Positions 2-55,924 of a stretch of 64,000 nucleotides of DNA are shown one piece after another; the first letter of the stretch is position 1, and every line of letters starts with the position of its first letter. Both the position numbers and the translations under genes were made by a program. This DNA is from Clostridia bacterium (GTDB taxonomy: Bacteria > Bacillota > Clostridia > UMGS1883 > UMGS1540): contig JAFZQX010000007.1 of the NCBI GenBank assembly GCA_017620205.1, positions 1-64,000 of the forward strand, written 5' to 3'. The notes below the pieces were generated by a model that did not search any database, was not told where the DNA came from, and worked only from the letters and a program-made list of their open reading frames with translations.

Positions 2-187
2 GGCGACTACATTGCTGTTAAGAAAATCGCTCTCGGAAAAGTTAATGCTCCGACAGACAAACAGCTCCTTTCAGCAGACGTTGCGGACGGCGTTATGGAC
101 GGTTTAATTGACAACGGTGACTATATTGCCGTTAAGAGAGTCGCTCTTCGCAAAGACGCTGATTTTGAAATAAACAGCAAAAACTAA
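2..187 (+). CDS. C-terminal end of a dockerin-like surface protein (5' part outside window)
   Basis: The reading frame is open from the window edge to a TAA at 185-187 and encodes about 61 residues. It closely resembles the last 60 residues of the secreted protein at 21684-23180. Both contain a calcium-loop-like repeat, here DGVMDGLIDNGD, which fits the dockerin/EF-hand pattern with acidic residues at loop positions 1, 5, 9 and 12. A hydrophobic/basic helix with a VKRVAL motif follows. A preceding half-repeat (GDYIAVKKIALGKV) has lost most loop acids. By family knowledge, dockerins bind cohesins, and a cohesin-like protein lies at 23284. The rest of the protein, and so its function, is not visible. 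Assignment as dockerin-like is by pattern only. Confidence 0.75.
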   Translation, partial: GDYIAVKKIALGKVNAPTDKQLLSADVADGVMDGLIDNGDYIAVKRVALRKDADFEINSKN

Positions 188-961: not shown

Positions 962-2194
962 TTAAGGTTTACATATGCCGCAGGGCGAATAGCCTTCTGC
1001 TATCAGTTCGTTGCGTGTTTTGTTTGATTCCCTTCTGTTTCTCTCGCTGATAAGCGCGGCGGATGTGCAGGAGGGATAGTGAAATTTCTTTGAGTTTGTA
1101 TTTAAAATATACGCGGAGGTTACCTGTCTTGTAACAGCGGCGTTCGCGCTTTCTTGGCAGCTGTCGCCGTTTGCGTAGTTTATGTAAATTCCGGGGTGTG
1201 CGTTATAGCAGAAAACGCAAAAGCATATACCCGCGCCGTTGTCTTCAACAGAAAACGCTTCAAGCAAAACGCCGGAGGCGAGTGAATTGCTGCCGCCAAA
1301 TATCGGCATTGCGCGGTACATTACGTGGTTGCCCGTGCGCCTAACATAGTTTCCTACTTTGTTTTCAAACGGGAGCATGCCTTCTTTGTTTAAATATCTT
1401 GTGCCCGTTATAAGGTTTTTTTCGTTTGCGTTTTCGCCCGTCAGCTGAAAACCTATAAGGTGGCATCTGTTATAAAGATATTTGCCGTCAACTATGTCGT
1501 ATTTTACCGTGTGCCAGCCGCTGGGCTTTATCATACCAATCTCGCCGCGCTCTTCCGTCGGCATAATATCGCGCCCGACAGAGGCTATACAGCCCGTGCA
1601 TCTGCCGAGGGAATCAAGTTCGCCGTAGTATTCATACGAAGCGGATGAAATCTGACCGCCCGAAAACATCGGGATATTGCTGTTGTATGTAACATACGGA
1701 CTGCCCGAAAACGCGGGAATATCGCAAAGCGAGAAGTGCCAGCCTGTATTTGTGATGGTAATCTGCCTTGTGTCCCCGTTCCATGAAACCGCAAAGCCGA
1801 AGCTTTCCGCTATAAAGCGGATGGGGAGCATCGTTCTGCCGCTTATTATTTCGGGAGCTGCGTCAAGCGTTTGCTTGGCGGCGCCGAAGTACGCTTCCGT
1901 GCTGCCAATTGTCAGCTTTACCGTTTTGCCGTCAAGTGCGAGCGCTGCGGTTTTTTGTGAGCTGTCCCAATCTGCCGTGCCGCCCATGCTTTCTATTACG
2001 GCGCGAACGGGCACAAGCGTGCGGCTGTTTCTTATAACCGGCGGCGCGTCAAGAGCAATATTTGCGCCGTTTACCGTCATCTGCGGATTGTCTATCTGCA
2101 GTATAATATTTGTGCCGTCAGCCGCCGCCGGAACAAAAAACGACAGCAAAACTGCGAGTATTAATGATATCGAAATAAGCTTTTTGTTTTTCAT
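962..2194 (-). CDS. Secreted DNA/RNA non-specific endonuclease with stalk and Cys-rich domains
   Basis: This 410-residue protein begins with a signal peptide (about 1-26, ending AAADG). Residues 28-152 match two copper-amine-oxidase-N-like stalk units (NSRTLVPVRAVIES and SGRTMLPIRFIAES), which usually act as extracellular spacers. Residues 160-345 are an EndA/streptodornase-type nuclease, with the catalytic-histidine region NRCHLIGFQLTGENANEKNL and downstream blocks GMLPFENKV and SVEDNGAGICF. The last 55 residues carry the HYPSC...CGIC cysteine motif often found at the end of such proteins, probably a metal-binding Ada-like fold. It likely degrades extracellular DNA/RNA for nutrition or in connection with uptake. 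It is a single gene, divergent from the aromatic operon. Confidence 0.88.
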   Translation of the reverse strand: MKNKKLISISLILAVLLSFFVPAAADGTNIILQIDNPQMTVNGANIALDAPPVIRNSRTLVPVRAVIESMGGTADWDSSQKTAALALDGKTVKLTIGSTEAYFGAAKQTLDAAPEIISGRTMLPIRFIAESFGFAVSWNGDTRQITITNTGWHFSLCDIPAFSGSPYVTYNSNIPMFSGGQISSASYEYYGELDSLGRCTGCIASVGRDIMPTEERGEIGMIKPSGWHTVKYDIVDGKYLYNRCHLIGFQLTGENANEKNLITGTRYLNKEGMLPFENKVGNYVRRTGNHVMYRAMPIFGGSNSLASGVLLEAFSVEDNGAGICFCVFCYNAHPGIYINYANGDSCQESANAAVTRQVTSAYILNTNSKKFHYPSCTSAALISERNRRESNKTRNELIAEGYSPCGICKP

Positions 2195-13994: not shown

Positions 13995-16949
13995 ATGTTT
14001 ACACAATTTGTATTTTTGCTGATATATATACTGTTTGCAGCTTGTATCTGCCGCTTTTTAAAAGAAAAATACTGCAGCCGTGCCTTCGCTTTGGGCATGT
14101 TTTTGGCGGCGCTTTTATTAAGGATTGTCATTTCGTTTTCGGCACAGGGCTATCAGACGGACATGAACTGCTTCAGATATTGGAGCATGCATGTAGCGTC
14201 AACTGCGCCTTGGCGTTTTTATGACAGTATATGGTGCGACTATCCGCCGGGTTACCTTTATTTTTTGGCGCCCGTAGGATTTCTTAAAAACATTTTTCCT
14301 GCAATGCCCGACAGGATATTTAATGTACTTATAAAGCTTCCTGCGTGCATTTGCGATATTTTGGGCGGATTTGTTATTTACAAGCTTGCGAAAAAACACT
14401 TGAGCGAAAGCGCCTCTTTAAAAACAGCCGCACTGTATATTTTCTGCCCTGCGGTTATATTAAACAGCGCCGTATGGGGGCAGGCAGATTCCGTGTTTGC
14501 GCTCTTTTTGCTGCTTTCGCTTTTGGCGCTTTCGGAAGAAAAGTATTATAAAAGCGCGGCGCTTTTAGGACTTTCCATGGCGGTTAAATTTCAGACCGTA
14601 ATGTTTGCGCCCGTGTTTTTGTTTGTATTTTTGGAGTGTGTTAAAAAGGATAGAAGCCGTTTCAAAACGTTTCTTATCTGTATAGGCATATTCCTTGCGG
14701 TGCCGTGTGTTTCGGCGCTTCCTTTTGCGGGATTTAACGCCCCCGCGTTTCTTACTGAGCTCGGTCTGTCTGCGGTGGGAGAATATCCGTATGCATCGCT
14801 TAATGCGTTTGGGTTTTTCTCAATACTCGGTGCAAACCTTTCGTCTGCGGACGAGCCTTTCCTTTTCCTGACATATGCGCAGTGGGGTATAATATTTACC
14901 GTAATAATAATTTTACTTACGGGAAGATTGTATTTAAAAGGAGAAGGAAAAGGAAAAATAATTTACACCGCTGCCGTTTTTATTACGCTTATATACGTAT
15001 TCTCTTCGGGTATGCATGAGAGATATCTTTTCCCCGCGGTGTTGCTTTTTACGGCGGCTTATTGCTGCTCATATGACAGAAAAACGCTTTATATCGCAGG
15101 CGCTTTAGCCCTGTCGCAGTATATAAACGTGGGTTATCTTTATAACATGGCTCAAGGCGGCGTGTTTCATATACCGCCGGATGATATACTTCTTAAAGCC
15201 GGCAGCTTGTTTACTCTCGGCACCGCCGTTTTTGCCGTTTATAATTTCAGACGGCTTTATATGGGATGTGAGAAAACATTCGAGCTTAAAGAAGAAAATG
15301 AAAAGCATATCACAAGGAAAGACGTTTTGTTTATAGCGGTTATTGCGGCGCTTTATTCGGTTGTTGCGTTTATAAACCTCGGAGATAAAGCGGCACCCGA
15401 AACGGCTTATTCCGGTGACGGTACGCATGAGGCGCTCATAACTTTTGATAAAGAAGAGTATATCGGCAGCGTTATATATTATAAAGGTCTCGGAGACGGC
15501 AGTGTTGAGATTTTATCGTCAACGGACGGAGTTGATTTCCAAAACGAAGGCGAATATGAAACGGACGATTGCTTCAGATGGCAAAGAATTCCGTGTGCAT
15601 TTAAGGCAAAGTACGTATGGCTCCGTACGCTTAATAAGGGAATAGATATTTACGAGGCGGGCTTTACGGATATTGAAACAGGGGAGATAATAACCTCTTT
15701 TGAAAGTGACAGTCCCTGGTTTGACGAACAAAATCTTGTGCCGGACGCAATATCTTTTAAAAACGGAACATACTTTGATGAAATATACCATGTAAGAACG
15801 GCGTACGAAAACCTTAAGGGTATTTATCCATATGAGATATCACATCCGCCGCTGGGGAAGCTTTTGATCGCGGCCGGCATAAAAATGTTTGGCATGAACC
15901 CGCTGGGGTGGCGCTTTATGGGCACGCTTTTCGGTATTTTTATGCTGCCGCTGATGTATGTTTTGGCAAAAAGAATCTTTAAAAATTCAAATGCGGCACT
16001 GATCGCAACACTGCTTTTGGCGTTTGATTTTATGCATTTTACGCAGACGAGAATTGCCACGATAGACTCTTTCGGCGTGTTTTTTATAATGCTTATGTAC
16101 TATTTTATGTATATTTATTATGACAGCAGCGTGCGGGAACTGCCTTATAAAAAGGCTCTTGGCACTCTGGCGCTTTGCGGACTTTCGTTTGCGCTCGGCG
16201 CGGCAACGAAATGGATATGCGTATACTCCGGTCCCGGACTTGCGGTGCTTTTTGCGGCTGCTGTGTACAGACGCGAAAAAGAGGATAGGGGCACGTGGTT
16301 TAAAACATGCCTGTGGTGTATTTTGTTTTTTACAGTAGTACCCGCTTTGGTGTACTTTGTTTCATACATGCCGTACTATTCGGCTGACGGCACAAGAAGC
16401 AAACTCGCGATACTTTGGGAAAATCAAAAGTATATGTTATCCTATCACGGAAGTCTTACCGCAACGCACCCGTTTCAGTCAAAATGGTTCACATGGCCGT
16501 TTGATATTAAGCCCATCTGGTATTACGGGGCGGAGGACAGAGTTTTGGACGGCGTGGTTTCAAGCATAGTAGGCTTCGGAAATCCCGTAATATGGTGGTT
16601 TGGCGCGGCGGCGGTATTGGCTGCTGTTGTCCTCGGAATGCGGAATAAAAAGCTTTTCTTTATTTGCACGGCGTTTTTGTCGCAGTATTTGCCTTGGGCG
16701 CTTATAACGAGAGCAGCTTTTATATATCACTATTTCGCAAGCGTACCTTTTGTGATACTGACGGCGACTTTTGCTTTAAGATATATATATGAAAAAAACA
16801 GATGGGGCAGAATTGCCGTCTTTGAGTTTTTGGTGATCTGCGGCATGGTTTTTTATATGTTTTATCCGGTGCTTTCGGGAATGCCCGTAAGCCGCTTATA
16901 TGTCAAAACTATACTGACTTGGCTTGAAACATGGAAGCTGAGCTATTAG
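13995..16949 (+). CDS. Fused double GT-C membrane glycosyltransferase (GT39/PMT-like C-terminal half)
   Basis: This 984-residue protein appears to be two polytopic glycosyltransferases joined end to end. Residues 1-430 form a GT-C-type membrane domain with an acidic first-loop motif (GYQTDMNCFRYW, about residue 55) and a DYPPGYLYF block. Residues 450-590 are a soluble, beta-rich, discoidin-like stretch. Residues 590-984 match the PMT (protein O-mannosyltransferase) domain: FDEIYHVRTAYE, SHPPLGKLLIAAGI and a FTQTRIATIDSF loop. By family, PMT enzymes move a sugar from a polyprenyl-phosphate donor to extracytoplasmic proteins. The following GT2 gene probably makes that donor. No RBS or stop lies between the halves. 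Donor sugar and target are unknown. Confidence 0.85.
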   Translation: MFTQFVFLLIYILFAACICRFLKEKYCSRAFALGMFLAALLLRIVISFSAQGYQTDMNCFRYWSMHVASTAPWRFYDSIWCDYPPGYLYFLAPVGFLKNIFPAMPDRIFNVLIKLPACICDILGGFVIYKLAKKHLSESASLKTAALYIFCPAVILNSAVWGQADSVFALFLLLSLLALSEEKYYKSAALLGLSMAVKFQTVMFAPVFLFVFLECVKKDRSRFKTFLICIGIFLAVPCVSALPFAGFNAPAFLTELGLSAVGEYPYASLNAFGFFSILGANLSSADEPFLFLTYAQWGIIFTVIIILLTGRLYLKGEGKGKIIYTAAVFITLIYVFSSGMHERYLFPAVLLFTAAYCCSYDRKTLYIAGALALSQYINVGYLYNMAQGGVFHIPPDDILLKAGSLFTLGTAVFAVYNFRRLYMGCEKTFELKEENEKHITRKDVLFIAVIAALYSVVAFINLGDKAAPETAYSGDGTHEALITFDKEEYIGSVIYYKGLGDGSVEILSSTDGVDFQNEGEYETDDCFRWQRIPCAFKAKYVWLRTLNKGIDIYEAGFTDIETGEIITSFESDSPWFDEQNLVPDAISFKNGTYFDEIYHVRTAYENLKGIYPYEISHPPLGKLLIAAGIKMFGMNPLGWRFMGTLFGIFMLPLMYVLAKRIFKNSNAALIATLLLAFDFMHFTQTRIATIDSFGVFFIMLMYYFMYIYYDSSVRELPYKKALGTLALCGLSFALGAATKWICVYSGPGLAVLFAAAVYRREKEDRGTWFKTCLWCILFFTVVPALVYFVSYMPYYSADGTRSKLAILWENQKYMLSYHGSLTATHPFQSKWFTWPFDIKPIWYYGAEDRVLDGVVSSIVGFGNPVIWWFGAAAVLAAVVLGMRNKKLFFICTAFLSQYLPWALITRAAFIYHYFASVPFVILTATFALRYIYEKNRWGRIAVFEFLVICGMVFYMFYPVLSGMPVSRLYVKTILTWLETWKLSY

Positions 16950-16963
16950 AAAGGATTAATGTC

Positions 16964-17887
16964 ATGACTAAAATATCTGTTGTAGTTCCTCTTTATAATG
17001 AAGAAAAGGTGATAAACGAGTGTTATACGCGAATAAAAAACGTACTCTCGGGCATTTCCATGTCTCACGAAATTATATTTGTAAATGACGGAAGCCGCGA
17101 TAAGACAGAGGCTTTGGCGCGTTCTTTGGCGGAAAATGACGGCGATTTGAAGCTTATCAACTTTTCCAGAAATTTCGGACATCAAACGGCTATAACGGCA
17201 GGCCTTGATTTCTGCGAAGGCGACGTCGTTGTTATAATGGACGCCGATATGCAGGATCCGCCTGAGCTTATACCGCAAATGATTGAAAAGTGGCGGGAAG
17301 GCTATGAGGTTGTTTACGGAAAACGCGCGCAAAGGCGCGGAGAAAGCGCATTTAAACTTATTACGGCAAAAATATTTTACCGTTTCTTGAAACTGATGAC
17401 AAGTATCGACATACCTCTTGATACAGGTGATTTCAGACTGATAGACAAGAAAGTCGTAAAAGAAATCAATAAAATGCGGGAAAATAACCGTTATGTAAGA
17501 GGTCTTATGAGTTTTGCAGGATTTAAGCATGTGAGTGTCGAATATATAAGACAGGAGAGGTTTGCGGGAGAAGCTAAGTACAGTTTATCGAAAATGCTAA
17601 AACTTGCTTCGGACGGAATAATATCCTTTTCAAACCGGCCATTGAAGCTTTCTTATATATTAGGCAGTATAACGTGTCTTGGCGCGGTAATATATTTCTT
17701 CGTGAATCTTTACCGCTGGGAGGCAATGGAGAAGCTTCCATACACAATATTGCTGTTGCTGCAGGGCTTTATACTTATATGTATAGGTATTCTGGGTGAA
17801 TATGTAGGAAGAATATACGATGAGTGCAAAGGCAGACCGATCTATATTATAAAGGATACGGTAGGGCTTTCAAAACCGGAAAAATAA
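16964..17887 (+). CDS. Polyprenyl-phosphate glycosyltransferase (GT2, DPM1/GtrB type)
   Basis: It probably transfers a sugar from a nucleotide donor to undecaprenyl phosphate at the inner membrane face. The GT-A domain has the opening block VVVPLYNEEKV, the metal-binding MDADMQDPPELI and TGDFRLIDKKVV. About residues 230-300 contain two membrane helices, as in GtrB/DpgS. I start at the ATG at 16964 (AAGGA 9 bases upstream) rather than the in-frame ATG at 16931 inside the previous gene. Its place 14 bases after the PMT-like gene indicates a donor-maker/user pair. Confidence 0.9.
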   Translation: MTKISVVVPLYNEEKVINECYTRIKNVLSGISMSHEIIFVNDGSRDKTEALARSLAENDGDLKLINFSRNFGHQTAITAGLDFCEGDVVVIMDADMQDPPELIPQMIEKWREGYEVVYGKRAQRRGESAFKLITAKIFYRFLKLMTSIDIPLDTGDFRLIDKKVVKEINKMRENNRYVRGLMSFAGFKHVSVEYIRQERFAGEAKYSLSKMLKLASDGIISFSNRPLKLSYILGSITCLGAVIYFFVNLYRWEAMEKLPYTILLLLQGFILICIGILGEYVGRIYDECKGRPIYIIKDTVGLSKPEK

Positions 17888-19406: not shown

Positions 19407-20310
19407 CAGTATAATAATAGGCGGCGGCCCGGCGGGACTGTGCGCAGGACTTTATCTTTCAAGAGGAGGGTATGACGCGCTTCTTTTGGAGAGTGGCTTT
19501 ATAGGCGGACAGGCGTCGCTTACTTCTAATATTGAAAACTATCCGGGCTTTGAAAACGGAATTTCCGGCATTGACCTCGCGATGAAAATGGAAGAGCAGG
19601 CAAAAAGGTTCGGCTTAAATATATTATATAATGAAGTGAAAAATATAAATCTTTCGGGAGACATAAAAACGCTTCTTACGGCGGACGGTGAGCTTCATGC
19701 AAAAACAGTAATAATCGCCTGCGGCGCGTCGCCCAGGAAACTCGGCTTGCCGAATGAAGAAAACCTCACGGGCAGCGGCGTATCATACTGTGCAACTTGT
19801 GACGGCGCCTTTTTTAAAGGTATGGACGTTGCTATAATAGGCGGCGGCAACACGGCGGCTGAGGATGCGCTTTTCCTTTCGAAAATAGTAAATAAGGTTT
19901 ATATTATACATAGGCGCGATAATCTCCGCGCGGAGCAGTCTTATAAAAACAAGATTTCCGAAACAGCTAATATAGAAGTCGTTTACAACAGTAAAATAAA
20001 GCAGATAGTTGAAAAAGACGGCGCCGTAAACGGTATTGAGATAGACAAAAACGGCGAAAGCGCGGCGCTTTTTGTGCGCGGTGTGTTTGTTGCAATAGGA
20101 ACCGAGCCGAGAAGCGGACTTTTCAAAGAAATAAAAAAAGACGAAAACGGATACATAATAACCGATGAAAATATGAAAACATCACTTCCGGGCGTTTATG
20201 CGGCGGGCGATATACGTAAGAAGTCTTTAAGGCAGGTAGTAACAGCCGTAGCGGACGGCGCGGTTGCGGCAAATTCCGCGGCTCTCTTTTTAAGCGGAGG
20301 TATAGTATGA
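19393..20310 (+). CDS. trxB: Thioredoxin-reductase-like flavoprotein
   Basis: A 305-residue pyridine nucleotide-disulfide oxidoreductase. FAD-binding IIGGGPAGLCAGLYLSR opens the protein, the redox-active cysteine pair is CATC (in GVSYCATCDGAFF, about residue 135), an NADPH loop IIGGGNTAAEDALFL follows, and the C-terminal FAD block is GVYAAGDI. It should reduce thioredoxin or a related dithiol protein. No thioredoxin gene is adjacent, so a paralogous or ferredoxin-dependent role is not excluded. The ATG at 19393 has GAGGTGA upstream and overlaps rnmV; its stop overlaps the next gene. Confidence 0.9.
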   Translation: MKIYDSIIIGGGPAGLCAGLYLSRGGYDALLLESGFIGGQASLTSNIENYPGFENGISGIDLAMKMEEQAKRFGLNILYNEVKNINLSGDIKTLLTADGELHAKTVIIACGASPRKLGLPNEENLTGSGVSYCATCDGAFFKGMDVAIIGGGNTAAEDALFLSKIVNKVYIIHRRDNLRAEQSYKNKISETANIEVVYNSKIKQIVEKDGAVNGIEIDKNGESAALFVRGVFVAIGTEPRSGLFKEIKKDENGYIITDENMKTSLPGVYAAGDIRKKSLRQVVTAVADGAVAANSAALFLSGGIV

Positions 20311-21425
20311 AACTGTATAAAAACTGCAGAATAATAACCTGCGCGGATAAAGACTTTGAAAACGGTTATATTTTAACCGACAACGGTAAAATATCGGGAA
20401 TAGGCGATATGAAAGATATGCCGGAGTGCGAAAACGCGCTTGATTTAAAAGGCAAAACGGTTTGCCCCGGCTTTGTTGACGCGCACTCGCACATAGGCCT
20501 TTTCCATGACAGTGAAAGCTATGACATGGCGGACGCAAACGAGAGTACGGACGCGGTAACGCCGCACCTTCGCGCTATAGACGGCATAAACCCGCTTGAC
20601 AGGTGCTTTCGCGAAGCGCTTTTGTCGGGCGTTACAACAGTTGCGGCGGGTCCCGGCAGTGCAAACCCCATAGGCGGCACGTTTGCGGTACTAAAAACAG
20701 CCGGCAAAAGGATTGACGATATGGTTATAAACAGCTCGGCGGCCATGAAGTTTGCATTCGGCGAAAATCCGAAAAAGTGTCACGGCAAAGGCGGCTCAGC
20801 ACCCAAAACGCGTATGGCGACGGCTGCTGTTATAAGAGAAGCGCTTTTTAAAGCAAAGAATTATGACGGCACAAGCTTTGATATGAAATGCGAAGCTTTA
20901 AAACCCGTTGTTGACGGGAAAATGCTTGTCAAAGCGCATGCTCACAGGGCGGACGATATATTCACTGCAATAAGAATTGCGAAAGAGTTCGGGCTCTGTA
21001 TGACGATAGAACATTGCACAGACGGCGCTCTTATAGCTGATGAACTCAAAAAAGAGAACGTTGCCGTAATACTCGGCCCGCTTATGGGCGACAGGGGAAA
21101 GCCGGAGCTTTGTAATAAATCATATGAAACGGCGCGGGCGCTTTACAAAGCGGGATTAAGCTTTGCGCTGATGTCTGACCATCCCGAAGTGACGGAGAGC
21201 GACCTTTTGATGCAGGCACAGCTTTTGGTAAAGCACGGCGTGCCCGGAAAAGAAGCTCTTTATGCAATAACCATAAACGCCGCAAAAGCCATTGGCGCGG
21301 AAGACAGGGTGGGAACGCTCGAAGACGGTAAAGACGCAGATTTTTGCGTGTTTACAGGTGATCCTTTGTCGTTTGACGGCAAAATAAATTTTGTTGTATG
21401 CAGCGGTGTTGAATATCGCGCATGA
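20307..21425 (+). CDS. Amidohydrolase, imidazolonepropionase-like
   Basis: A 372-residue metal-dependent hydrolase. The beta-sandwich start (MKLYKNCRIITCADK) is followed by the metal motif VCPGFVDAHSHIGL, later histidines in VKAHAHRADDI and TIEHCTDG, and the catalytic Asp in MSDHPEVTESD. These fit the amidohydrolase superfamily; the C-terminal GTLEDGKDADFCVFTGDPL block is typical. Substrate is unknown. No histidine-degradation genes surround it, so it should not be named HutI. It overlaps the flavoprotein by four bases. Confidence 0.87.
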   Translation: MKLYKNCRIITCADKDFENGYILTDNGKISGIGDMKDMPECENALDLKGKTVCPGFVDAHSHIGLFHDSESYDMADANESTDAVTPHLRAIDGINPLDRCFREALLSGVTTVAAGPGSANPIGGTFAVLKTAGKRIDDMVINSSAAMKFAFGENPKKCHGKGGSAPKTRMATAAVIREALFKAKNYDGTSFDMKCEALKPVVDGKMLVKAHAHRADDIFTAIRIAKEFGLCMTIEHCTDGALIADELKKENVAVILGPLMGDRGKPELCNKSYETARALYKAGLSFALMSDHPEVTESDLLMQAQLLVKHGVPGKEALYAITINAAKAIGAEDRVGTLEDGKDADFCVFTGDPLSFDGKINFVVCSGVEYRA

Positions 21426-21683: not shown

Positions 21684-23180
21684 ATGACAAAATCAAGAAA
21701 TTTTAAAAGAGCATTGATTGTTATTGCGGCTCTTGCCTTGATAATTTGCTTTGCTCAGACGGTTGTTTTTGCTGCTAATACCGTAAATGTTAAAGACGGT
21801 TCATACAGCAACGGTACAATATCAGTTACCGGCTCCATCGGCACAAAAGGAGCAGAAATGACAATGTTGGCTGTCAGAACGAACAATGAAAACGTTCAGC
21901 TTAGCGACTATGAAACCCCCGACGCTTTAGCTGCAGACGTTCAGTATATCGATCAGGTTACAGCTACAGATGATAACTTTGAAAAGACATGGACATTCGA
22001 ACTCAGAGAAAATACCGAAGGAAGTTATTCCCATGTTGTAGTATTTGTATCAGGTACAGATGCAAACACTGTAAGTCTTGCTATTCCGCTTGACGAGAAA
22101 AACGGCGTAAACGGTACTGTTACATTTGCAAACGGTTCCGATTTCGTAGACAATGCTCCTACATTCGAAGCTGCAGGCGGCGACGATAACTGGAAAGGTC
22201 AGCTCGAAGGTACGGTTAAAGACGCTTCCGGCAATCCTGTTGAAGCTACGGTTGATATCACGGCAGGAACTATCACAATGGAAGCTCCGTTTGAGAAAAC
22301 ATCATATACAGTTACAATCACAAACACTTCTGATGATTATCCGGACTTCACAGCATCAAAGACATTCACATTGATTTCCGCAGACGGCGCAGCAGCTGCA
22401 GAAGCTATCGAAGAGCTCAATGCATTGCCCGCTGATCTCGGTGTTAATGTTGATAAGGGTGACGATGCTTATACAATCACAATTCCTGATAATACAGACA
22501 ACATCACATATACTGTAACTGTTGCAGGTGAAGAAGTAACAGACAGACCGGTTGTTGTTAACAGAGCAGAAGAAGGCGGAGATACACAGGTTGTTACTGT
22601 TAAAGCAGCAGCTAACGGTACAGACGCTGTAAAGACACACAGTGTAAACGTTCCCGCTAAGGGCGTTGTTGGCCCCGCAATCACAGAAGCTGATGTTACA
22701 ATCATCGCTGACGAAGAAGGCGAAACTATTACAGACGTTTACAAGAAGTTCATCGGAAAGGGCAACATAATCGTTACAATCGCTGAAGGCGAAATCGATC
22801 CTGAAACACAGAACGTAAAAGTAAACGGCAAAGATTTCTACTACGTTGCAAAACGTAACTACTTCGTAGGTATCGTTCCCGCAGCTGATAAAGCAGCTAT
22901 AATAGATGCTGTTGAAATCGGTGACGGCGCATCAGATGCAATCGAATACGGTAAAGATCCTATAGAGGGCGACCCCGGAACAAGACTTGACAACGGTGAC
23001 TGGGCTGCTATCAAGAAGATTTCGCTTAATAAGGTTGCACACCCGACAGATAAACAGCTTCTCGCATCAGACGTATCTGACGGCGTTATGGACGGCGTAA
23101 TCGATAACGGTGACTTTGCAGACGTTAAGAAAGTTGCACTCAGAAAAGTAAAAGATCTCTTAATTAACACCGTACAATAA
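21684..23180 (+). CDS. Secreted multi-domain protein with C-terminal dockerin-like module
   Basis: A 498-residue exported protein: signal peptide about 1-31 (ending VVFAANTV), then several beta-sandwich/Ig-like segments without any catalytic motif I recognise, then a dockerin-like end at about 432-498. The second dockerin repeat has the loop DGVMDGVIDNGD, fitting D-x-x-x-D-G-x-I-D-x-x-D, followed by a helix FADVKKVALRKV; the first repeat keeps only the later acids (LDNGD). The next gene encodes a cohesin-like protein. Codon choice (GCA/GCT, ACA, ATC) matches the ribosomal genes rather than neighbouring metabolic genes, which suggests high expression. Function is inferred to be surface attachment. 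Confidence 0.8.
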   Translation: MTKSRNFKRALIVIAALALIICFAQTVVFAANTVNVKDGSYSNGTISVTGSIGTKGAEMTMLAVRTNNENVQLSDYETPDALAADVQYIDQVTATDDNFEKTWTFELRENTEGSYSHVVVFVSGTDANTVSLAIPLDEKNGVNGTVTFANGSDFVDNAPTFEAAGGDDNWKGQLEGTVKDASGNPVEATVDITAGTITMEAPFEKTSYTVTITNTSDDYPDFTASKTFTLISADGAAAAEAIEELNALPADLGVNVDKGDDAYTITIPDNTDNITYTVTVAGEEVTDRPVVVNRAEEGGDTQVVTVKAAANGTDAVKTHSVNVPAKGVVGPAITEADVTIIADEEGETITDVYKKFIGKGNIIVTIAEGEIDPETQNVKVNGKDFYYVAKRNYFVGIVPAADKAAIIDAVEIGDGASDAIEYGKDPIEGDPGTRLDNGDWAAIKKISLNKVAHPTDKQLLASDVSDGVMDGVIDNGDFADVKKVALRKVKDLLINTVQ

Positions 23181-23201
23181 AAGCTTAATGACGTTTTTAA
23201 T

Positions 23202-23231
23202 CCGGGAAAACCTGTTTCAGGGTTTTCCCGG
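23202..23231 (+). terminator. Hairpin between the dockerin-like and cohesin-like genes
   Basis: An 11-bp perfect stem, CCGGGAAAACC/GGTTTTCCCGG, with an 8-base loop and no T-run. It may allow partial readthrough or protect the upstream mRNA. Confidence 0.55.
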
Positions 23232-23283
23232 CTTAAATAATAAAAAACATTAAAGATATTAAAGCAAGGAGAGTAAGAAAATC

Positions 23284-25242
23284 ATGAACAAAAAAATTCT
23301 TTCAATTTTTGTTGTTGCATTCATGCTTCTTTCTGTGTTCTCAACAGTTGCATTTGCAGATACTACAGATGTAACATTTGATTTCACAGTTCCGAACGTA
23401 ACAGCAGCACTCGGTAATGCCGAAAACGGAACAAAAACATTAGTAGCAGTACCGGTAATCGTTACATCCTCTGCGGCTTCTGATGCCGTAGGCTGTGACC
23501 TTATTTTTGATCCCACAGTACTTAATTATGTTAGTTGGGAGAACGTAAAAAACTATAAAGAGCAAGACTGCAGCGATCCTTATATTGATGAAGAAGCACC
23601 CACTATAATCGAACTCAATTTTGGTGCTGCATGGGATACCGGTTATGACAACGAAGCGTTTGTTGTATTAACGTTCGAATTTTTAGGTGAAATACCTGAA
23701 GGAGAAACTTCAGTTTCAACAACTATCACACCTGTCTTCCACAAAAACGTTTGTATCGATAGCGAACAGAACAAAATTCCCGCAGCTAATGAGACATTTA
23801 CTGCAGGTACAATCACAATCGCTAAACAGCATCAGACACCTGTTATCGGCAGCGTAACAATTAACGGTACAGGCGAAGTTGGTTCAGCTCTCACAGCTAC
23901 ACCCGCTGATTTCGAAGATAACTGGGACCTCGAACCCACATATTCATATGAATGGAAAATAGGCAGCAGCGTTGTTTCTACAGAAGCAACATACACACCT
24001 GTTGCAGCTGATATCGACAAAACAGTTACAGTTTCCGTTAAAGCTACAGTAGATGCTGATGAAAACGCTGAAAGTGATGCTAAAACAGCTACAAAAGCAA
24101 TCAAAGCTAACGAAACAGCTACAGCTTCAGTTGCAAACTTTGCAATTGCTCCCGAAGAAGCTTCTGTTGGTGAACCCATAACAGTATCTTATGCCTTCAC
24201 ACCTTCCATAAACGGCGGTGAAGACGCTTCAGAAATCGTATGGTACAACGCAGCTGAGCCCGAAGAAGGCGAGCCCGCTGCACTTTCCGGTGAAGTTAGT
24301 GCAGACGGCAAAACATATACACCTTCCGTAGAAGACTATGAAAACGGCGTTGTAGTTGGCGTTGCTGTTACACCTAAGGGTGACAAAGACGTGGCTGCAG
24401 GCAGAGCTGTTACAGCTGAAGCTGCAGGCGCAGTTGCAGTTCAGAAACCTGTTGTAACAGAAGTTACACTCGGCACAGTAACAGCAGGTAAACCCGCTAC
24501 AGTTTCCTACAAATATGACGGTGTTGGCGATTCCGATGCTTGCAAAGAAGGCAACACAATCATTGAATTCTACATGGTAAATGAAGATGAAGAAGCTGAA
24601 GAAGATATCCTCTTAACAGGCGAAGAAGAAGGCGTTACAATCGAAGGCGACACAATCACGCTTTCTAAAGATTTCAAAGGTGCAGAAATCTACGCAGTAG
24701 TTACACCTGTTAACGCAGCAGGCGTTGCCGGTGAACCCGTTGCTTCTAACGGTAAAGTTGTAAAATCCAAGAAGGGCGGCTCCGGCGGCCTTAACGGTCC
24801 TTCACTCGCTCCCAGCAAGCAGGATGAAAACAACAACAATAACAACAATAACAACACAGTAGACACAGATAAATTCATCCTTACAATAGACAGCAAAGAA
24901 GCTTCTGTTTGGGGCGTTGTAAAGACAACTGATGTTGCTCCTATCATCGTAAAAGACAGAACAATGCTTCCGATCAGATTCGTTGCTGAAAACCTCGGCT
25001 TCGAAGTTGAATGGGATAACGATGCTAGAAAAGTTACAATCACAAAGGGCGAAGACGTATTAACACTCGTTATTGATTCTGACATAGCAACTGTAAACGG
25101 CGAAGAAGTTAAACTCGACAGCGCAGCTTATATCGACGTTGAAGCAAGCAGAACAATGGTTCCGCTTAGATTCATCGCTGAAAACCTCGGCTACAATGTT
25201 GAATGGGTTAACGCTACAAGACAGGTTGTTATCACAAAATAA
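23284..25242 (+). CDS. Secreted cohesin-like protein with stalk-domain C-terminus
   Basis: A 652-residue exported protein. After the signal peptide (about 1-25, VAFADTT) residues 28-180 resemble a cohesin: VAVPVIVTSS, VGCDLIFDPTVLNYV, FVVLTFEFLGEIPEG and a final GTITI strand. Residues 185-505 are Ig-like repeats rich in Ala/Glu. A run of nine asparagines lies near residue 517. Residues 530-652 carry two copper-amine-oxidase-N-like units (VKDRTMLPIRFVAENLG and EASRTMVPLRFIAENLG). I infer a scaffoldin-like surface receptor for the dockerin-like protein encoded upstream. No SLH or sortase signal is present, so the stalk units may be what holds it at the wall. Codon use indicates high expression. 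Confidence 0.8.
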   Translation: MNKKILSIFVVAFMLLSVFSTVAFADTTDVTFDFTVPNVTAALGNAENGTKTLVAVPVIVTSSAASDAVGCDLIFDPTVLNYVSWENVKNYKEQDCSDPYIDEEAPTIIELNFGAAWDTGYDNEAFVVLTFEFLGEIPEGETSVSTTITPVFHKNVCIDSEQNKIPAANETFTAGTITIAKQHQTPVIGSVTINGTGEVGSALTATPADFEDNWDLEPTYSYEWKIGSSVVSTEATYTPVAADIDKTVTVSVKATVDADENAESDAKTATKAIKANETATASVANFAIAPEEASVGEPITVSYAFTPSINGGEDASEIVWYNAAEPEEGEPAALSGEVSADGKTYTPSVEDYENGVVVGVAVTPKGDKDVAAGRAVTAEAAGAVAVQKPVVTEVTLGTVTAGKPATVSYKYDGVGDSDACKEGNTIIEFYMVNEDEEAEEDILLTGEEEGVTIEGDTITLSKDFKGAEIYAVVTPVNAAGVAGEPVASNGKVVKSKKGGSGGLNGPSLAPSKQDENNNNNNNNNTVDTDKFILTIDSKEASVWGVVKTTDVAPIIVKDRTMLPIRFVAENLGFEVEWDNDARKVTITKGEDVLTLVIDSDIATVNGEEVKLDSAAYIDVEASRTMVPLRFIAENLGYNVEWVNATRQVVITK

Positions 25243-28450: not shown

Positions 28451-28718
28451 GTCGTACATTCCCAGAATCGAAGTTTTCTTATATACGGTATTTTTGCAGC
28501 TTGCTATTGCCGAGTTTCCCCGCGGCACACACAAATAACCGTTTATCGCTGCTTAGTTCCCTACCTGACGAGGTTCACGGGTTCGTATTGCGCAGGACCC
28601 GACCGTCATCACTGCTCACAAAAGCCAAGCTATACAAGAAAAGCCCTCAAAAGGGATTTCGCCCCTGCTGTAGCGGATTGCAGGTACAGGGCACCGCTAA
28701 CTCCCCGACTAGTACGAC
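28451..28718 (-). ncRNA. ffs: Signal recognition particle RNA, large bacterial type
   Basis: On the minus strand the ~268-nt RNA is closed by GTACGAC/GTCGTAC (28712-28718 with 28451-28457). Near the 5' end are the Alu-domain blocks GGGGAGTTAGCGGTGCCCTG and CTGCAATCCGCTACAGCAGG. The S-domain shows GGTCCTGCGCAA, CGTGAACCTCGTCAGG and AAGCAGCGATAA. This is the Bacillus-type scRNA with an Alu domain. Seven T follow on the minus strand (28444-28450), giving an intrinsic stop. Position just upstream of dnaX matches other Bacillota. Confidence 0.93.
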
Positions 28719-34008: not shown

Positions 34009-34330
34009 TGCTGTGACATGGCATACGATGAAGCGGGAGGTTGCCGGATTTGATCCGGGTTTTTCCGTGGAGAATGTCCGATTCTTGAAACCGGGCGACA
34101 GTCACTGTACGTTAAGATGCATAGAGAGGAAACTGTAAGCTTATTTTTACGGTTTATAAGTCCTGTCAGCTTCTTGTGTGCCCAGTTATGCCTTTGAGCG
34201 TAAGCTGGGTTTAATCATGAAAAGCCGTGAAACGCACGGCTCTGTGTACAGTATTTTCTCGTCTGTCGGCGTGTCAGTAAATAAAGTTCCCTTCATTATT
34301 ATATGTGCGGGGACGCGAAAAATCTTTTAG
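34009..34330 (+). promoter_or_regulatory. Structured 5' leader of the ribosomal operon
   Basis: About 330 transcribed bases precede rpsJ. Stems: CCGGAT/ATCCGG (34044-34058), AAACTGTAA/TTACGGTTT (34130-34155), a bulged 11-bp arm CCCAGTTATGC/GCGTAAGCTGGG (34181-34209), and AGCCGTG/CACGGCT (34223-34241). Unpaired-looking conserved-type blocks GGGAGGTTGCC and AAACCGGGCGAC lie around the first stem. I infer an autoregulatory ribosomal-protein leader; such leaders are known for S10 operons, but I cannot match this one to a defined family by eye. Confidence 0.6.
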
Positions 34331-53972: not shown

Positions 53973-55889
53973 CTATTTTATAGCATTTTTAATTCTATGC
54001 AAGATGGCCGATGCCTGCGCACGCGATGCGTTTCCGCGGGGTGCGAGAGACGTTTTAGTGATACCGTTTATAAAGCTCTTTGCAACTGCCCAGCGCAGAG
54101 GTTTTACGGCGTATTCCTGAACTTCCGCTTCGTCTTCGTATCCGGAAATATCAGCTTCTTCTTCCGTGTCATAGCCTTTATACTGCGCATATCTGTATAG
54201 GATTGCCGCAAACTGCTCACGTGTAATTGTTGCGTCGGGAGCAAACTCGGTATCTGTAATACCTTTTACTATTCCGAAACCGCTTGCCCATTTGATGGCG
54301 TTTGCATACCATGCGTCTTCTGCAACATCGGTGAAGGGATTTGCCGTATATACTTCGGGTTCGCCTTCTATTCTGTAAAGAATTGTAACTATCATAGCGC
54401 GCGTTGTGTCGGCAGACGGTGCGAATGTGTCGTCCGTAACGCCCTTCATGAGATTGTTATCGTATGCGTAACGTACGTCTTCAATAAACCAATCATCATC
54501 TTTTACGTCATTGAAGGGAAGAGCCTTTTTGCCGTTTGAGTTATTGTTAGTGTTCGAATTTGTGTTAGTGTTATAATTTGTTTTTGTGCTGCCTGAGGTT
54601 TTTGAACCGGAACTTGTTTTGGTGCTTGAACTACTGCTTGAATCACTGCTTGATTCCGATGCTCTGAATTCGGCTTCTATCGTAACATCTGCCGCAGGCA
54701 TTTTGAATGTTCGCTGTGTTGTTCCTGTTCCGCTGACTTTTACAGAAACTTCTTCTTCATCCTCGTCTTCATAATAAACATAAACTTTCTTAATTGTATA
54801 ACCGCTTTTTGCAGAGATTGAAATGGTAACCTTTTCATCCTCGTGTGCTGAAGACATATCGGTTGAGATACTGCCGTGAGTCGGCTTGTCGATTTTAATA
54901 TCGTATTTTTCGCCTTCAACAAATTTTGCACTTACCGTAACATCGCTTTCGGGCATAACAAATGAATAAACAACTACGCCGTCATCGTCATCTTCTTTAA
55001 CTTTAATTTTGTTATCGTCATCATCGGTAACGGTGAGGCTGCCAAGTTTATAATTCTGATCCGGATCAACTTCCAGCACTACCTTCGTATCGGCAACAGC
55101 TTTGGCTTTTTTAACAGAAACGTTACCGTGTTTAATATTCTCATTAATTGTGATAGAATAGGGAGTATCTGATTTTTCCTTAAATGAAAAATAAACAGTT
55201 ACATCGCTTTCCGGCATTTTGAAAGTATAAACATTTGCAGATACTTTTGAAAGCTCAACTTCGTTTTCGTTGGTATCTTTTACGGAAACTTCATCTGTTT
55301 TATAGCCGTTTTCGGGAGTAAGCGTTATTTTAACCGTATCTCCGGCTTTAGCCTCTTCAACATCTGTTTTGGCAGAGCCGTTTTCTACATTTTCTTCTAA
55401 AGATATACTAAAGCTTTGCGGTTCAACTTCTTTAAACGATGCACTTACAATTACATTCTTTTCGGGCATTATAAATGTGTATTTTTCTGTTAAATCTTCA
55501 CCGGCGCCGCCTTCCTCGCCTTCTTCGCCTGCTTCACCTTCGTCATCATTTTCTTCTTCTTCGTTGTTATCCTCTATATCTTCTTCCGGGTCTTCTTCTG
55601 CAGCCTCTTCAACTTTTTTAAACTCCGTTTCTTCTTTAAGATCGTTGCCTTCTTCGTCAGTTACGGTAATTTCGTCAATTTCGTAACCTCTTTCGGGTGC
55701 AACATTGAGGGTTACTTCTGTACCGCTTTCAATTTCTTCAAGGACGGGGCTTGCTGCACTCACGCTGCCGTGTTCGGTGTTTTCATCAATAGTCAGCTTA
55801 TAAGCATCGGCAAAAACAGCCGCAGGCACAAGAGACAGGAGCATAAAAACTGCGAGTAAAACAGCAAATAATTTTGTTGACTTCATCAT
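53973..55889 (-). CDS. S-layer-homology surface protein with four beta-repeats
   Basis: A 638-residue exported protein. Signal peptide about 1-27 (AAVFADAYK). Residues 28-400 hold four InlB-B/bacterial-repeat-like units, each beginning with an ENxxHGSVS-type turn and ending MPESDVTVxxxFKE. The first unit carries an inserted run of about 35 Glu/Asp/Gly residues (about 96-130). A Ser/Thr/Asn-rich linker lies at 405-455. Three SLH domains (about 456-638) should bind pyruvylated wall polymer. I start at 55889 where AAGGAGG lies upstream. The linker is a plausible O-glycosylation target, which is inference only. Confidence 0.92.
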   Translation of the reverse strand: MMKSTKLFAVLLAVFMLLSLVPAAVFADAYKLTIDENTEHGSVSAASPVLEEIESGTEVTLNVAPERGYEIDEITVTDEEGNDLKEETEFKKVEEAAEEDPEEDIEDNNEEEENDDEGEAGEEGEEGGAGEDLTEKYTFIMPEKNVIVSASFKEVEPQSFSISLEENVENGSAKTDVEEAKAGDTVKITLTPENGYKTDEVSVKDTNENEVELSKVSANVYTFKMPESDVTVYFSFKEKSDTPYSITINENIKHGNVSVKKAKAVADTKVVLEVDPDQNYKLGSLTVTDDDDNKIKVKEDDDDGVVVYSFVMPESDVTVSAKFVEGEKYDIKIDKPTHGSISTDMSSAHEDEKVTISISAKSGYTIKKVYVYYEDEDEEEVSVKVSGTGTTQRTFKMPAADVTIEAEFRASESSSDSSSSSSTKTSSGSKTSGSTKTNYNTNTNSNTNNNSNGKKALPFNDVKDDDWFIEDVRYAYDNNLMKGVTDDTFAPSADTTRAMIVTILYRIEGEPEVYTANPFTDVAEDAWYANAIKWASGFGIVKGITDTEFAPDATITREQFAAILYRYAQYKGYDTEEEADISGYEDEAEVQEYAVKPLRWAVAKSFINGITKTSLAPRGNASRAQASAILHRIKNAIK

Positions 55890-55924
55890 TTTCAAATCCT
55901 CCTTAAAATCAAATAATATGGCAA

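Follow-up and report, generated by a model that had tools for sequence, protein, structure and literature searches.

A codon-adapted gene pair probably encoding an enzyme-free, wall-anchored cohesin-dockerin surface assembly in an uncharacterised Clostridia bacterium

Two adjacent forward-strand genes, P0001 (21684-23180, 498 residues) and P0002 (23284-25242, 652 residues), lie in a 64,000-nucleotide stretch of DNA (the window), which is part of contig C28 in the 2.34 Mb genome of an uncharacterised, gut-type Clostridia bacterium. We consider it likely that they encode an abundant, enzyme-free, wall-anchored cohesin-dockerin surface assembly. As proposed here, P0002 would be secreted and held on the cell wall by the copper-amine-oxidase-N module at its C-terminus, in the manner of OlpC, presenting a single cohesin from the wall on immunoglobulin-like (Ig-like) spacers. 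P0001, a presumably secreted Ig-domain protein, would plug into this cohesin with its C-terminal X-dockerin (an X-like domain followed by a dockerin) and be displayed at roughly 1:1 with P0002, forming a coat or an adhesive layer. Within a larger network of X-dockerin and cohesin-type surface proteins, codon adaptation is highest for this pair. Dockerins bind cohesins, classically in cellulosomes; outside cellulosomes, both modules have long been on record, mostly as stand-alone modules with an unclear role. A preliminary description of this DNA, with which the boundaries of both open reading frames agree, had seen here a non-cellulosomal assembly of one abundant protein docked on another.

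The N-terminal domain of P0002 has, according to structure prediction, the nine-stranded jelly-roll fold of a cohesin. AlphaFold (AF2) modelling of residues 25-187 from a two-sequence alignment gave a predicted local distance difference test score (pLDDT) of 73.5 and a predicted template modelling score (pTM) of 0.71. When this model was compared with the Protein Data Bank (PDB) by Foldseek, the 32 best matches were all cohesin entries, including OlpC (E 6e-8 to 3.5e-5, TM mostly 0.55-0.69). A profile of seven aligned cohesin-Ig segments, taken from the window's own genome (G000) and from G001 (Clostridia bacterium RGIG3586, goat rumen, another genus), likewise placed seven cohesins first among 177,635 PDB sequences (best E 3.7e-6), whereas phmmer searches of single proteins against the PDB were uninformative. 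A cohesin fold is thus predicted where the preliminary description had suspected one. The hidden Markov model search that it had suggested, with Cohesin (PF00963), gave a borderline result: residues 43-155 scored 23.3 bits in a six-frame scan and 24.1 with their neighbours in frame, which is exactly the cut-off (24.1), while the direct scan reported nothing.

In the direct Pfam scan of P0001 and P0002, the double PF07833 unit of P0002 alone was recognised. This bears out both the two copper-amine-oxidase-like stalk units described earlier and the statement that neither protein has a recognisable catalytic domain. The copper-amine-oxidase-like domain of the single-cohesin scaffoldin OlpC binds secondary cell-wall polymers (PMC4582956), and single-cohesin scaffoldins with PF07833 anchor to the wall in Clostridium thermocellum (OlpC), as they probably do in relatives of this species (PMC4582956, PMC3413522). 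The same combination, a single cohesin and PF07833 in one protein with a predicted signal peptide, is found in P0002, and the precedent of OlpC and ScaG supports the suggestion that the stalk units serve as wall anchor. Between these ends lie the putative spacers; in the copy of the Ig/PKD-like domain on contig C34, PKD_3 exceeds its cut-off.

Judged by profile comparison, P0001 contains two tandem F-hand repeats of about 22 residues that are homologous to known dockerins. The search with Dockerin_1 (PF00404) that had been proposed for it found no match (curated cut-off 22.9 bits), and the sole related copy scored by this model, on contig C44, stayed below the cut-off at 15.8 bits. When six P0001-type dockerin modules were aligned by hhalign with 24 Pfam-positive dockerins of the order, the score was 28.1 (P 1.7e-5) and stable with any member left out; the maximum of 300 column-permuted controls was 16.4. 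Furthermore, a profile of the X-like domain plus dockerin found two small, secreted proteins from other families of the class, one in G236 (E 2.5e-17) and one in G340 (E 1.1e-8). Both begin with an Ig-like region, have an X-like domain and a Dockerin_1 that Pfam recognises, and align with P0001 along X and dockerin. Because these Ig-X-Doc relatives have canonical dockerins, we infer that P0001 carries a derived one. Against the PDB, the X-dockerin profile ranked two CelS dockerins first, but with an E of 0.036, and this was not used as proof.

The two repeats read R/E-[IL]DNGD..xxKKxxLxK and xIDNGD..xVKKVALRK and are linked by a PTDKQLLxSDV segment. Loop 1 has lost ligands 1, 3 and 5 and keeps position 12 (D439) alone, and loop 2 keeps positions 1, 5 and 12 (D463, D470, D477) with a 3-residue insert. 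The loop DGVMDGVIDNGD, by which the module had first been noticed, is present at residues 466-477 (23079-23114) and the module is a dockerin by descent; however, relatives do not share the first D of this loop, and the acidic residues conserved in the second repeat are the three just named. Because the helices of the two repeats are nearly identical, docking would be possible in either orientation, although the asymmetric loops may favour one of them. Since the dockerins of Ruminococcus flavefaciens ScaA and CttA also carry inserts in loop 2 (12 and 13 residues, respectively) and still bind their cohesins (PMC5934362), the insert in P0001 has a structural precedent.

Loop 1 with its lone position-12 Asp, in a module that Pfam does not recognise, could also mean that the dockerin has lost cohesin binding and persists as a relic or structural domain, P0001 being merely an abundant secreted Ig protein. 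We regard this as improbable. Between genera, D463, D470 and D477 are conserved, as is the KQLL..DV segment, and the R. flavefaciens dockerins with inserts do bind. In addition, contigs C10 and C3, each carrying a P0001 paralogue that ends in an X-dockerin, both end in an identical 141 nucleotides of dockerin DNA and both overlap the start of the window by 113 nucleotides, whereas their gene bodies show 53-68% nucleotide identity over most of their length. The contrast between identical dockerin DNA and differing bodies indicates that the dockerin module was homogenised recently and that the assembly forks here, and suggests that the dockerin is still in use.

We then consider how the two modules are distributed, as compared among 28 genomes of the order and in class- and phylum-wide searches. 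Among the 28 genomes of the order, the window's own genome and G001 are the only ones with the X-dockerin, and likewise the only ones with the full cohesin-Ig type. G001 contains exactly one of each, adjacent to one another, and its orthologues of HPF, RNase M5, P0001 and P0002 stand in the same order as in the window. In G236, from another family, an amidohydrolase gene (L171:4254-5411), the Ig-X-Doc gene, a cohesin-like/dockerin gene and a Pfam-positive cohesin gene stand in a row, and the amidohydrolase is 49% identical to the product of the gene directly upstream of P0001. The neighbourhood of a dockerin gene and a cohesin gene hence recurs in two other genera, one of them from another family. 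The protein encoded after the Ig-X-Doc gene of G340 is cohesin-like by eye, was confirmed by neither the PDB search nor a local cohesin model, and is not counted. The conserved X-like domain (about 95 residues), in the place where an X-dockerin dyad has its Ig-like X module, precedes the dockerin in all six copies of the own genome, in G001 and in G236, and the P0001-type Ig-like domain of G047 is fused directly to a canonical Dockerin_1. The phylum-wide search returned ordinary dockerin matches only and no further X-dockerins, so that within the collections searched the P0001-type X-dockerin is confined to the own genome and G001.

A six-frame PF00963 scan of the own genome located eleven other cohesin places besides P0002; its X-dockerins number at least six, on five genes, alongside six cohesins of P0002 type. 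Apart from the two P0001 paralogues, the X-dockerin ends a C34 protein that bears two or more cohesin-Ig units and would be an adaptor scaffoldin. A LamG protein of C44 (LamG-X-Doc-X-Doc) contains it twice; the N-terminus of this protein is missing, as the contig starts inside its LamG domain. The P0002-type cohesin-Ig unit is also found in SLH (C18) and LRR (C30, C34) proteins. As paralogues, LamG protein and adaptor share the dockerin type and the SLH and LRR proteins share the cohesin type, the pair is part of a larger network. C43 encodes a separate set: one protein with copper-amine-oxidase-N, Big_2, cohesin and canonical dockerin, with a cohesin gene after it. We therefore rejected uniqueness of the pair within the genome, and the earlier notion of a minimal scaffold pair has to be given up in view of at least four more genes with the P0001 dockerin type, about a dozen cohesins and a multi-cohesin adaptor itself ending in this dockerin type.

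With this many X-dockerins and P0002-type cohesins in one genome, P0001 might dock mainly on the C34 adaptor, the C18 SLH and the C30 LRR proteins while P0002 takes other X-dockerin proteins such as the C34 adaptor or the LamG protein, the adjacency of the two genes reflecting co-regulation rather than an exclusive partnership. Promiscuity among same-type cohesins of one species, established for cellulosomes, where it is frequent, would favour such mixing. We nevertheless think it rather unlikely, given the single adjacent pair of G001 and the matching codon bias of P0001 and P0002, which the LRR and SLH cohesin proteins do not share.

This bias was determined with the 19 open reading frames of the window's ribosomal-protein block as the codon adaptation reference and 68 window open reading frames ranked. 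The codon adaptation index is 0.846 for P0002 (rank 2 of 68; z 13.6 relative to background codon choice) and 0.815 for P0001 (rank 4 of 68; z 10.6), level with pyruvate:ferredoxin oxidoreductase. The window's own SLH protein reaches a z of 4.6. The G001 orthologues are also biased (z 3.7 and 9.2), and two of their neighbours are not. Both proteins are thus predicted to be made in large amounts, a forecast from codon usage rather than a measurement, and the ribosomal-protein-like bias of both genes supports the abundance supposed earlier. No terminator-like site was seen between P0001 and P0002, and they probably form an operon (flanking signals in Table 1).

No glycoside hydrolase, polysaccharide lyase, carbohydrate esterase or other Pfam enzyme domain was found on the genome's dockerin-bearing open reading frames scanned, the C44 protein lacking its N-terminus; dockerin-bearing glycoside hydrolases, the mark of a cellulosome, were accordingly not seen. 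Ten neighbouring proteins, all housekeeping or unrelated, contain no glycoside hydrolase in a Pfam scan either. Both results sustain the non-cellulosomal setting and the lack of nearby glycoside hydrolases as first described. The C44 protein may or may not be a glycoside hydrolase with dockerins, since its contig begins within the LamG domain. This truncation, together with the assembly breaks at dockerin repeats, leaves room for a cellulosome-like complex whose catalytic X-dockerin cargo sits in contig gaps or belongs to unrecognised families. Such a complex is very improbable: the genome is rated 100% complete, all X-dockerin matches could be assigned and none goes with a Pfam enzyme domain, and P0001 has short Ig proteins as its paralogues and relatives. 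Since P0001 shows Ig-like domains only and is predicted to be abundant, its role would most likely lie in coating, adhesion or shielding.

Several observations weigh against an abundant, enzyme-free assembly in which P0001 docks on a wall-anchored P0002. The pattern Dx[ND]xDGxxxxxD is not found in both dockerin loops and the calcium ligands are degraded; with loops this degenerate, classical calcium dependence cannot be assumed. An AlphaFold model of the X-dockerin from three sequences had a pLDDT of 37 and was discarded, so the fold of the P0001 X-dockerin rests on homology. No copper-amine-oxidase-N module was recognised beside the dockerin gene of G236, and OlpC-like anchoring is therefore seen only in the f1 family. 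Moreover, P0001 and P0002 could each favour a different partner from the network, and the regions of P0001 without domain assignment may conceivably be catalytic. Taken together, the cohesin fold, the dockerin by descent, the non-cellulosomal setting, the wall anchor and the abundance of the earlier interpretation are retained, and its minimal pair is not. It is conceivable, though we would sooner doubt it, that the assembly is the main surface coat of the lineage, an S-layer-like array of a non-catalytic protein docked on a wall-anchored one through a dockerin with reduced or no calcium dependence.

Table 1. Features of P0001, P0002 and their flanks (window coordinates)
Feature	Position	Strand	Basis or remark
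3' end of another P0001-type dockerin	2..178	+	continues C10 or C3 paralogue; 113-nt identical overlap, profile match
Promoter-like site upstream of P0001	21514..21541	+	TTGCAA-16-TATAAT, extended -10 TG; consensus match alone, 10/12
P0001 signal peptide (predicted)	21684..21773	+	residues 1-30, ...QTVVFA|A; charged start, hydrophobic core
P0001 N-terminal Ig-like domain	21774..22118	+	about residues 31-145; common to G001, G003, G047 and G340 proteins
P0001 central region, probable beta domains	22119..22682	+	residues 146-333; conserved in C10/C3 paralogues and G001 orthologue; no Pfam match
P0001 X-like domain directly before dockerin	22683..22976	+	residues 334-431
P0001 divergent dockerin, two repeats	22977..23162	+	residues 432-493; profile comparison with controls, canonical relatives
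P0002 signal peptide (predicted)	23284..23358	+	residues 1-25, ...STVAFA|D
P0002 cohesin domain	23365..23823	+	residues 28-180; PF00963 at cut-off, PDB profile, AF2 and Foldseek
P0002 Ig/PKD-like domain	23842..24117	+	residues 187-278; accompanies every cohesin of P0002 type
P0002 further Ig-like linker domains	24118..24753	+	residues 279-490; weak IG_AIR9 match; common to C34 scaffold (residues 30-492)
P0002 Gly/Lys/Asn-rich flexible linker	24754..24867	+	sequence
P0002 double copper-amine-oxidase-N module (PF07833), probable wall-binding	24868..25239	+	166 bits
Intrinsic terminator after P0002	25260..25288	+	13-bp stem, T7; strong

The genes around the pair encode a glycosyltransferase of family GT2, a ribosome hibernation factor, an RNase M5-like protein, a thioredoxin reductase and an amidohydrolase, then DUF378, RecR, YbaB and an M24 peptidase. 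The amidohydrolase gene (20307-21425, imidazolonepropionase/phosphotriesterase-like) lies directly upstream of P0001, and a few kb upstream of the pair the stretch 13995-17887 holds a protein-O-mannosyltransferase (PMT) gene followed by a GT2 gene, which could serve to glycosylate surface proteins. Elsewhere in the window we observed a probably wall-anchored nuclease with a double PF07833 module and a DNA/RNA non-specific endonuclease domain (965-2194, minus strand), a secreted protein with five InlB-like B-repeats and three SLH domains (53976-55919, minus strand), a large signal recognition particle RNA (28452-28717, minus strand) and an S10-Clostridia ribosomal leader (34020-34101, plus strand).

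Other clusters were seen in the same genome. C45 (1-6560) and C13 (44423-50611) hold a scaffoldin-like cluster of a dockerin protein, a cohesin-MBG-dockerin protein, a triple cohesin, a cohesin-SLH and an SLH protein, in which the triple cohesin runs into an SLH protein across an 80-nucleotide contig overlap; a second dockerin type is confined to this cluster, where no enzyme domain was seen. At G000:C7:116000-137000 lies a gene cluster for large, secreted proteins with LamG domains, relatives of the LamG part of the C44 protein. In other genomes of the order (G009, G010, G013, G016; loci L158-L162), Cohesin and Dockerin_1 occur in one surface protein with LRR, List_Bact, Big_2 or FN3 repeats. 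These proteins are common in the order, mostly cohesin-dockerin-cohesin and possibly head-to-tail polymers; one from G009 also carries a peptidase M23 domain.

If the coat reading is true, the cohesin-dockerin lock would be a general coat-building joint and not an enzyme-display device. The toolkit seems to be used here for a surface coat, because the plug bears no recognisable enzyme and codon usage predicts abundance, and the P0001/P0002 pair makes the role of cohesins and dockerins without cellulases directly testable. As Pfam misses the P0001 variant, non-cellulosomal dockerins have probably been undercounted. Assemblies of cohesins and dockerins, anchors of the OlpC type, dockerins with an atypical loop 2 and bacteria that bear scaffoldins without being cellulolytic (PMC11557425) are already known. 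What is new is their combination in an operon-like, codon-optimised pair for which no enzyme cargo was recognised and whose X-dockerin is lineage-specific and missed by Pfam.

Among known systems, P0002 resembles OlpC (Cthe_0452) and ScaG (Acetivibrio cellulolyticus / C. clariflavum) in its domain content and predicted secretion, and the OlpC cohesin structure (4dh2) is among the best matches of its model. It differs from them in the reversed order (cohesin first, anchor last), in its Ig/PKD spacers, in that no cellulosomal enzymes are seen, and in being encoded beside its presumed ligand. P0001 shares with R. flavefaciens ScaA and CttA a dockerin with an insert in the second calcium loop; in CttA an X-module precedes the dockerin (PMC5934362), in P0001 the X-like domain. 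In contrast to these proteins, its insert is only 3 residues long, its loop 1 is also degenerate and there is no cellulosome; its X domain is not recognisably the same as that of CttA. The Cohesin and Dockerin_1 proteins of G009, G010, G013 and G016, to which C43 of the own genome adds another, also place the modules on Ig, LRR, FN3 and List_Bact repeat proteins, but with both modules in one chain, canonical loops and no X-dockerin type. Paenibacillus guangzhouensis and Lachnoclostridium sp. MSJ-17 are non-cellulolytic, scaffoldin-containing bacteria with cohesins, dockerins and SLH anchors (PMC11557425), and like them the present bacterium has all three without a conventional cellulosome. Whereas enzymes are linked to dockerins or cohesins in those bacteria, the dockerin proteins seen here are enzyme-free and the pair has a ribosomal-protein-like codon bias.

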